From contig NZ_CP132543.1 of assembly GCF_030845195.1 (NCBI RefSeq), positions 2,001,501 through 2,065,500 of the forward strand: 64,000 bases of DNA, in the 5' to 3' direction. This DNA comes from Sanyastnella coralliicola. Its GTDB lineage: Bacteria > Bacteroidota > Bacteroidia > Flavobacteriales_D > Sanyastnellaceae. Below the pieces are notes generated by a model. It did no database searches. It was not told where the DNA came from and saw nothing but the letters and a program-made list of their open reading frames with translations. This document shows, in pieces, positions 56,666 to 58,878 of this stretch. The translations under genes were made by a program, and so were the position numbers. Each line of letters begins with the position of its first letter. Positions within the stretch are counted from its first letter, which is position 1.

Positions 56666-57841
56666 TTAGAGATTCTCAATCACAATTGCAGAGGCTCCAC
56701 CTCCACCGTTGCAGATTCCTGCTGCACCGTACTTACCGCCGTTCTGCTTCAGTACGTTCATCAATGTCACTACGATACGACTTCCAGAAGACCCCAGTGG
56801 GTGTCCGAGTGCTACGGCACCACCGTTAACGTCCACTTTCGAAGCATCAAGTCCGAGTTCTGCAATGTTCGCTAGACCTACTACAGAGAATGCTTCATTC
56901 AATTCCCAGTAATCGATATCATCGTTTGAAAGGCCTGCTTTACCTAATGCAATTGGAAGTGCTTTTGAAGGAGCTGTAGTGAACCACTCTGGCTCTTGTG
57001 CTGCATCAGCAGTAGCAACGACACGTGCAAGTGGCTTCAAACCTAGTTCAGCTGCTTTTTCAGCGCTCATCAATACAACTGCAGAAGCTCCATCATTCAA
57101 TGTCGAAGCGTTCGCTGCGGTTACAGTTCCTTCCTTGTCAAACGCCGGACGTAGATTCGGGATCTTGTCCATACGTACGTTCTTGTACTCTTCGTCTTCA
57201 CTCACTATGATGGCATCGCCACGACGCTGTGGTACTTCAACAGGAACTACCTCATCGTTGAATTTACCCTCGCTCCAAGCTTTCGCAGAGCGGTTGTAAG
57301 ATTCGATAGCGAAAGCATCTTGTTCTTCACGAGAGATGTTCTTCTCTTTAGCGCAAAGCTCAGCGCAATTCCCCATGTGCACCTTGTTGTAAACGTCAGT
57401 CAAGCCGTCTTTCAACATACCGTCTTGCATCTTTATATCACCGAATTTGCTTCCGTTACGGGCGCTAAAGTAGTGAGGTACAGAGCTCATGTTTTCCATA
57501 CCACCGGCAATTACGATGTCATTATCGCCTGCTTTGATGGTTTGAACAGCCATGCTGATTGACTTCATCCCTGAAGCACATACTTTGTTTACTGTAGTAC
57601 ATGGTACGTTATTTCCAATACCTGCTCCCATTGCCGCCTGACGAGCAGGTGCTTGACCGAGACCAGCTTGGAGAACATTCCCCATAAATACTTCTTGAAC
57701 AAGTGCAGGATCAACTCCTGCTTTATCGAGGGCTCCTTTGATCGCAACCGACCCGAGCTTAGTTGCTGGAACACTGCTCAACGCTCCAAGGAAACTTCCC
57801 ATTGGCGTACGTGCCGCTCCAACAATTACTACTTCTTTCAT
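56666..57841 (-). CDS. Acetyl-CoA C-acyltransferase (thiolase)
   Basis: A 391-residue thiolase of the biosynthetic/degradative class. The nucleophile Cys is in [10 protein letters not shown] near residue 88; N-E-A-F-S near 315; the catalytic His in [11 protein letters not shown] near 347; and the second Cys in G-I-C-N-G-G-G-G near 377. It makes or cleaves acetoacetyl-CoA, which fits with HMG-CoA lyase and the dehydrogenase elsewhere in this window. A -7 box lies upstream. Monocistronic. Confidence 0.94.
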
Positions 57842-57867
57842 GAGATGAGTGTTTTCATTTAACGCCG

Positions 57868-57875
57868 CAAAGATA
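57868..57875 (-). promoter_or_regulatory. -7 box of the thiolase gene
   Basis: Perfect TATCTTTG on the minus strand, 26 nt before the ATG. A clear -33 element was not seen. Confidence 0.5.
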
Positions 57876-57968
57876 GCAAAGCAGATCGGGTAATCTATCT
57901 CAGAAGTGTCTCGGGCAAACCCACAACAACGCAGATTTTTAACGCTTGTTTAGAAATTCAGATCATTT

Positions 57969-57985
57969 TTGGCACGGCACTTGCA
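57969..57985 (+). promoter_or_regulatory. Sigma-54 (RpoN) promoter
   Basis: TTGGCACG-GCAC-TTGCA matches the sigma-54 consensus YTGGCACG-N4-TTGCW at every fixed position. GG lies at 57971-57972 (-24) and GC at 57983-57984 (-12), predicting a start near 57996. The rest of the 302-bp gap 57842-58143 holds the thiolase promoter to the left and the transcript below to the right. Confidence 0.75.
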
Positions 57986-57995
57986 ATACTCCAAG

Positions 57996-58089
57996 CAACA
58001 TTACTTCTCTAGTAAGTTTTGGTTTTGGTTAATAGTTATTTTGGTTAAGGTTGGTAAGGTCCGAAAACGTTCGGGCCTTATCCTTTTTA
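57996..58089 (+). ncRNA. Putative sigma-54-driven small RNA (about 95 nt)
   Basis: The stretch from the predicted sigma-54 start to an intrinsic terminator holds no ATG-started frame. It is rich in GGTT repeats (TTTTGGTT twice close together, GGTTAAGGTTGG later), which could pair with AACC-rich mRNA sites. An alternative is a leader with an attenuator for the acyltransferase gene, which begins 55 nt after the terminator. Confidence 0.5.
58056..58088 (+). terminator. Intrinsic terminator of the putative small RNA
   Basis: A 10-bp stem (AAGGTCCGAA with TTCGGGCCTT, one U-G pair), loop AACG, then ATCCTTTTT. Confidence 0.7.
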
Positions 58090-58143
58090 TAAGCTTTCGT
58101 ATCCAGAACGTATGCTTAGCAGAGAATCAAGTATCTTGGGGGC

Positions 58144-58878
58144 ATGAAGCGCAACGCTTTTGGACAACCACTGTGGGTAAAGAGAAGCTTGATCCGAATC
58201 TTCGGAGCAGCGAGTTGGCCTCGATTCAACTGGAAGTATGAGGCTGAAATTGAAGGAGCTGAAGTCTTTCAAGAGGTACGAGACAAAAACGTACTCATTG
58301 TGAGCAATCACCAGACCTACTTCGCTGATGTTACCTTCATGTTTCATGTGATTCAATCAGCTATCGCTGGAAAACCGAACAACATTCGTTTCCCGGGATT
58401 CCTGTTGGCTAAGAAGACGAACATCTATTTCGTCGCTGCCGAAGAAACCATGTCGAAAGGATTCCTTCCTAAACTGATGAGAGCTGGTGGTGCTATAACT
58501 GTAAAACGAACTTGGCGTAAAGACGGCGAGAATACCAAGCGAGAGGTTGATCCAAAAGATCCTGAAAAAGTAGTCACTGCGTTAAATGATGGATGGGTAG
58601 TCTCTTTCCCTCAAGGTACTACTACCCCGTTCGTTCAAGGAAGAAAAGGAACAGCTCACTTGATCAAACAAACCGAGGCTTTGGTTGTCCCAGTGGTCAT
58701 TGATGGATTCCGAAGAGCATTTGATAAAAAAGGACTGGTGAAGAAGAAGAAAGGCACCACCCTGAAGATGCAAGTAAAGGAGCCTTTGAAGATCAACTAC
58801 GACGCTCCTGTTGACGACATTCTACATCAAATCATGGATGCCATTGAGCAGACCGAAGATTTTTTGATGGTGAAGTGA
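58144..58878 (+). CDS. Lysophospholipid acyltransferase-like protein
   Basis: A 244-residue PlsC-superfamily protein. The motif is V-S-N-H-Q-T-Y-F-A-D, again with five residues between His and Asp. Block III is F-P-Q-G-T-T (near residue 156) in place of PEGTR, and V-P-V-V-I-D-G-F near 186 marks block IV. It probably acylates lysophosphatidate or a related lipid at the inner membrane. ATG 58144 fits the hairpin upstream and the family N-terminus (M-K-R-N-A-F-G). Confidence 0.85.
   Translation: MKRNAFGQPLWVKRSLIRIFGAASWPRFNWKYEAEIEGAEVFQEVRDKNVLIVSNHQTYFADVTFMFHVIQSAIAGKPNNIRFPGFLLAKKTNIYFVAAEETMSKGFLPKLMRAGGAITVKRTWRKDGENTKREVDPKDPEKVVTALNDGWVVSFPQGTTTPFVQGRKGTAHLIKQTEALVVPVVIDGFRRAFDKKGLVKKKKGTTLKMQVKEPLKINYDAPVDDILHQIMDAIEQTEDFLMVK

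Follow-up and report, generated by a model that had tools for sequence, protein, structure and literature searches.

A predicted sigma-54-dependent small RNA gene, conserved among relatives of Sanyastnella coralliicola, and its putative target leader

The question raised by this locus is what a sigma-54 promoter of exact consensus controls when the transcript expected from it holds no open reading frame. The window, i.e., the whole stretch of 64,000 nucleotides that was analysed, corresponds to positions 2,001,501-2,065,500 in a genome of 4,097,636 bases (4.10 Mb) that consists of one contig, and the -24/-12 promoter TTGGCACGGCACTTGCA lies at 57969-57985 on the forward strand, a position that is conserved together with the RNA. 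The site reads TTGGCACG-N4-TTGCA with zero mismatches, and its GG and GC dinucleotides stand ten bases apart as in the TGGCAC-N5-TTGCW rule, so that the full match to the RpoN consensus claimed by the first-pass annotation is confirmed. The annotation also described the site as the only one of its kind, and this holds for the window, where no other match with fewer than three mismatches was found and matches within three mismatches numbered 10 versus 17 expected. The pattern TTGGCACGN4TTGCW occurred three times in the whole 4.10-Mb genome and not at all in its backward reading. The looser pattern YTGGCAYN5TTGCW showed no genome-wide enrichment (5 versus 8 in the backward control), therefore the match alone is weak and conservation has to decide. 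Both the sigma factor and the activators that such a promoter calls for are encoded in the genome, which carries one copy of rpoN and encodes four activators whose sigma-54-interaction domain is complete, a receiver domain being present in three of these. Elsewhere in the same genome, a second good sigma-54 site (L261 937-1136, G000:C1:3809438 onward) stands directly before a 48-aa ORF (MKELRKKYMALKSQ...), which is followed by a terminator-like hairpin.

Transcription from sigma-54 promoters starts about 12 nt after the C of the -12 element, and on this spacing the predicted RNA would start at about 57994-57997, while the T run of the terminator puts its end at about 58088. The result is a predicted small RNA of about 93-95 nt (57994-58088, forward strand), which contains no ATG and is ORF-free. 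The fold, all on the forward strand, is composed of a 5' stem-loop TTACT-TCTCT-AGTAA at 58001-58015, which is present in the centroid structure, followed by the GGTT repeats at 58016-58050 and an intrinsic terminator at 58053-58088 with a 13-bp stem (58053-58082), an AACG loop and a T run. The RNA had been described as about 95 nt long and ending at a 10-bp hairpin with a T run; the length and the T run agree with our analysis, but the stem is longer than stated, and the GGTT repeats and the missing start codon were both correctly noted. The fold of the whole RNA was more stable than most shuffled sequences (z -2.17; 5 of 200 shuffles were equally good). No Rfam family was matched at the gathering score in the loci scanned, and the listed matches were unrelated. 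A small peptide and a riboswitch were considered as other readings and both dropped, in view of the missing ATG, of indels between copies and of the lack of an Rfam match.

The RNA is widely conserved. In a search of 60 relatives with 341 bp, it was also recovered (E of 1e-5 or lower) from other genera than that of the window. A covariance model was based on an alignment (A1) of the RNA part of 21 copies, from which five of the 26 listed copies (L030, L041, L042, L074 and L078) were omitted for an extra hairpin or a long insert. This model, which holds no promoter sequence, matched 87 of the 114 genomes of the bacterial family, 42 of its 50 good genomes and 19 of its 21 genera. The loci examined, which represent part of all matches, gave 131 model matches and, after 10 identical ones were dropped, 121 unique copies. 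Of these 121 copies, 37 have the pattern TGGYAYN5TKG at a distance of 40-115 nt upstream of the core, versus 0.24 expected, a figure derived from ten such sites in the other 384,501 nt scanned, which shows that the promoter is kept together with the RNA and argues for a conserved sRNA gene. Among the 100 of these copies that were outside the model seed, 17 carry the site. A second set, defined by a different pattern, held 37 sigma-54-linked copies, of which 36 non-redundant ones remained after one near-identical copy was dropped; they span at least 15 genera, and their -12 element is often TTGA, TTGG or TTGT rather than TTGC. The TGGYAYN5TKG set and the 36-copy set differ slightly because of the different search patterns; for instance, L192 and L202 are only in the former, and L074 and L122 only in the latter.

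The structure is conserved as well. All seven predicted terminator pairs in A1 (21 sequences) have changed on both sides with pairing kept, none is broken, and the loop is AACG in most copies. A simple 5' hairpin is formed in 34 of the 36 sigma-54-linked copies, with stems that vary while pairing is kept (e.g., ACTTGC/GCAAGT, GCATAC/GTATGC and CAACTGC/GCAGTTG). The shuffle test of this hairpin is only partly convincing, as it beats 95% of shuffles in only 17 of the 36 copies and gives a p of about 0.16 for the focal copy. Upstream of the -24 element, TTAAC occurs within 80 nt in 27 of the 36 promoters versus 1.5 expected, and in the window it is found as TTTAACG at 57938-57944 on the forward strand. 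TTAAC may be the activator site, and we list it only as a candidate because it coincides with the thiolase promoter box in six copies of genus g5.

These data bear on the possibility that the sigma-54 site is a fossil or a chance match and that a different promoter gives rise to the conserved RNA. Such a reading could draw on the looser-site genome counts, which do not exceed the backward control, and on the 84 of 121 unique model matches in which TGGYAYN5TKG is missing from the scanned interval; L122 and L074 carry a variant sigma-54 pattern, and most of the 84 copies are paralogues with other upstream regions. We consider it highly improbable, since the position-specific conservation of the site in at least 15 genera is far above expectation and no sigma-70-like site was found in 57800-58300. 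The presence of rpoN in 109 of the 114 family genomes could not separate those with the RNA from those without. The RpoN-dependent small RNA proposed by the first-pass annotation is supported by rpoN, by the four activators and by the promoter, GGUU core and terminator kept across genera, and we hold it very probable that this stretch is a sigma-54 sRNA gene.

The first-pass annotation had offered another reading, in which the acyltransferase gene has this transcript as its attenuated leader, and cis control of the neighbouring thiolase is a related idea. The thiolase, of the acetyl-CoA acetyltransferase type (Pfam Thiolase_N/C), is the divergent neighbour at 56666-57841 on the reverse strand, and the acyltransferase (Pfam PF01553) lies downstream of the sRNA and outside it, at 58144-58878 on the forward strand. 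The gene order thiolase-sRNA-acyltransferase is kept in several genera, and in L121 and L123 the sRNA is located upstream of a thiolase in the same direction, which speaks for leader or cis control. On the other hand, only 8 of the 36 sigma-54-linked copies have the acyltransferase at 313 nt or less downstream; there is no constant downstream gene, and the attenuated-leader reading therefore fails. In 22 of the 36 copies (20 divergent, 2 co-directional), no more than 0.42 kb separates the thiolase from the sRNA promoter; the DNA fetched around 13 copies contains no thiolase. The neighbours also seem to have their own promoters. TAnnTTTG is the consensus of the sigma-A-type box of Bacteroidota, and the thiolase has such a box, TATCTTTG, at 57868-57875 on the reverse strand, 34 nt upstream of its ATG, with similar boxes 27-35 nt before the start in most copies of the relatives. 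The acyltransferase perhaps has its own box too in G000, G001, G016, G017 and G034, namely TATCTTGG at 58132-58139, 12 nt before the ATG, in the window, and TAACTTTG at the same place in G016. The focal RNA did not show an antiterminator fold. We regard leader or cis control as quite improbable, and the focal RNA is a gene of its own, with its own promoter and terminator and no ORF, rather than a leader.

As for the function of this sRNA, its GGUU-rich part points to a candidate target. Over 19 nt, the sRNA sequence GUUUUGGUUUUGGUUAAUA is perfectly complementary to a leader in the same genome, that of a protein of 1355 aa whose N-terminus resembles a signal peptide; the putative antisense seed GTTTTGGTTTTGGTTAATA is located at 58016-58034 on the forward strand, and the complementary leader at G000:C1:2911410-2911431 on the reverse strand, where only 2 nt separate the end of TATTAACCAAAACCAAAAC from the ATG. 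Eight genera have the block TTAACCAAAACC, mostly in the form TATTAACCAAAACCA, in front of ORFs with a signal peptide, and the ORFs behind it belong to different families, with a proprotein-convertase P domain, a T9SS-associated galactose-binding domain, or none. Leaders were counted only with an ORF downstream (longer than 150 aa in the flank comparison), the target ORFs of the relatives being cut by the fetched stretch. In all 10 genomes compared, the longest perfect run of a genome's own RNA was 10-19 nt in the leader and 7-8 nt in the flank (about 750 nt), and because the target loci were found by their match to the focal RNA, this complementarity is partly by construction. The RNA of G002 has lost GGTTTTGGTTAA and kept a 10-nt match. 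Coadaptation of sRNA and leader is weak: own pairs are stronger on average than swapped ones (-22.4 versus -21.1 kcal/mol, permutation p 0.021 with kinship ignored), but the own pair ranks 13, 12 and 14 of 15 in G003, G007 and G032, respectively.

Counts and energies are less telling than the position of the match. Targets with AACC-rich sites had been suggested as a search by the first-pass annotation, and a conserved leader candidate was indeed found, but neither the genome nor the family counts rise above the backward control. AACC-rich sites showed no target enrichment genome-wide (13 versus 14 backward), and TTAACCAAAACCN{0,16}ATG was not commoner than its control over the 114 genomes (56 versus 59), several of the 56 matches being sRNA genes on the opposite strand. 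The duplex energy screen was not selective, since the reversed core reached -32.8 kcal/mol on some start site versus -34.2 for the target, and energy alone thus does not single the target out. Given these counts, the case for the target rests on the position of the sites and their recurrence at leaders, and we lean slightly towards an action of the sRNA on the leader of the secreted protein.

The best explanation as a whole, which we favour with reasonable though not strong confidence, is a trans-acting sigma-54 sRNA that represses a large secreted protein by pairing with its leader. The sigma-54 polymerase, driven by one of the enhancer-binding proteins of the cell, would transcribe an RNA of about 93 nt, in which a 5' stem-loop is followed by a GGUU-rich stretch, unpaired for the most part, and by the terminator. 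The first half of the GGUU stretch would pair with the greater part of the 5' leader UAUUAACCAAAACCAAAAC, a short sequence that stops 2 nt ahead of the AUG; this would block ribosome entry on the mRNA of the very large secreted protein, and its synthesis would drop in the presence of the sigma-54 signal. The other half, UUUUGGUUAAGG, would form with the terminator a 3' end that also occurs in several families of sRNAs and in some mRNAs. This end may be a handle to which an RNA-binding protein docks, the single RRM protein being the most likely one, or may act as a weak seed common to these RNAs.

This 3' module was found well beyond the sigma-54-linked genes. The sequence TTTTGGTTAAGGT at 58039-58051 on the forward strand is invariant or nearly so in A1 and has eight exact copies in the genome, and in six of them the next 55 nt fold at -15 kcal/mol or better, namely in the focal RNA, in two copies of an array at 781-782 kb, and at 350 kb, 641 kb and 1.11 Mb. 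Near-copies at 1.33, 3.12, 3.58 and 4.05 Mb are also followed by terminators. The array (L045 3329-4072, G000:C1:781328-782071) contains three RNAs in tandem with the same 3' module and terminator and no sigma-54 sites, and similar arrays are present in G001, G002, G003, G007 and G026. At L098 and L099 (G000:C1:350401 and 640848, reverse strand), GTAAGCAGTTAGTTTGGTTTTGGTTAAGGT and a terminator lie just past the apparent stop codon of genes, which makes these loci possible 3'-UTR sRNAs; one of the host genes presumably resembles a small heat-shock protein, judging by its C-terminus. The combination of UUUUGGUUAAGG and terminator, common to sRNAs without sigma-54 sites and to mRNA 3' ends, is therefore characteristic of a class of 3' ends of RNAs. 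A 19-mer scan of a collection of 84,980 species gave 20 stretches, and those with a terminator are nearly all in Flavobacteriales MAGs. At L102 (G000:C1:1046755-1046767), the start codon of a likely secreted protein is preceded by an exact complement of the shared module, a site that is possibly a target of the whole RNA family.

No Hfq was detected in the genome at E 0.001, with a search that detects Hfq in 5 of 14 control genomes, and one single RRM protein with an RGG-like tail is encoded; the RRM protein is the most likely partner of the module because no Hfq was found. That it docks on the module as a handle is a tentative idea. A stronger form of protein binding is a CsrB-like sponge, in which the GGUU repeats and the 3' module titrate the RRM protein, no mRNA is paired, and sigma-54 sets the amount of the RNA. 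A module shared with mRNA 3' ends and with sRNAs of other promoters would fit a sponge, as would one RRM protein and no detected Hfq, and according to the available part of one report, RbpB of Bacteroides attaches to unpaired regions in the sRNAs of a multi-copy family (PMC11697453). A sponge does not predict a 19-nt complement in a recurring leader, nor a terminator on nearly every copy, and we consider it unlikely. Leader pairing, as the preferred reading, may be joined with the shared module in a wider and rather speculative proposal: in this Hfq-less branch, UUUUGGUUAAGG and the AACG-looped terminator might be the hallmark of an entire class of regulatory RNAs that dock on the RRM protein, whether they come from a sigma-54 promoter, a sigma-A promoter or the 3' end of an mRNA, and sigma-54 signalling might set the output of surface proteins largely via this RNA layer.

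The focal RNA may be compared with several known systems. The Qrr sRNAs of Vibrio (LuxO/sigma-54) have sigma-54 promoters, occur in several copies in some genomes and pair with the 5' UTR of targets, as far as described in the part of PMC2680268 available to us, and the focal sRNA resembles them in its predicted sigma-54 promoter, its multiple copies and its putative 5'-leader pairing. Unlike Qrr, which acts with Hfq, it is encoded in a genome without detected Hfq, has a two-hairpin layout, belongs to a different phylum and has no Rfam match, and its candidate target is a secreted protein instead of a quorum-sensing regulator. In the available text of PMC11697453, FopS/GibS of Bacteroides thetaiotaomicron is a multi-copy family with a conserved single-stranded seed before the terminator, the RRM partner RbpB, one 3'-UTR-derived member and surface-protein targets. 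The focal RNA likewise belongs to a multi-copy set with possible 3'-UTR-derived members, has a putative single-stranded seed before its terminator and a secreted protein as its candidate target, and is accompanied in its genome by an RRM protein that may be its partner. However, FopS has sigma-A-type promoters and a seed at the very 5' end, and the same part of that report describes no 5' hairpin (PMC11697453). FopS was not matched among the Rfam hits at E up to 1 in the loci scanned (release 15, which may not hold FopS). Rfp18 of Flavobacterium psychrophilum, compared by description only, is a Flavobacteriales sRNA acting on secreted-protein genes, with pairing predicted via its third stem-loop and no sigma-54 promoter named in the part of the paper available (PMC9723704). 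The focal RNA is not filed as Qrr because of the missing Hfq and Rfam match, nor as FopS because of the different promoter type; by analogy it is Qrr-like in promoter and FopS-like in layout, and belongs to neither.

To our knowledge, little is known of the role of sigma-54 in Bacteroidota or of the Hfq-independent action of sRNAs there. With a conserved sigma-54 sRNA for which a seed, a candidate leader and a shared 3' module are defined, both questions become testable in one organism, and if the proposal is true, sigma-54 signalling reaches surface-protein output largely through an RNA layer in an Hfq-less branch of Bacteroidota. The accessible portions of the open-licence PMC literature yielded no description of an sRNA of Bacteroidota that depends on sigma-54, and a paper on the bacterial sigma-54 regulon that covers Flavobacteriia does not use the terms sRNA, small RNA or non-coding in its text (PMC12316311).

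RNAs of the family or a 19-nt match were also found in records titled Chryseobacterium gleum (L081 and L160), a title that looks wrong, and Akkermansiaceae (L067). Another conserved sRNA-like family, observed at L109, L077, L080 and L081, carries GTAGTTATTTTGGTTAAGGTTTC and a terminator; several of its members have an upstream box that resembles TAnnTTTG.
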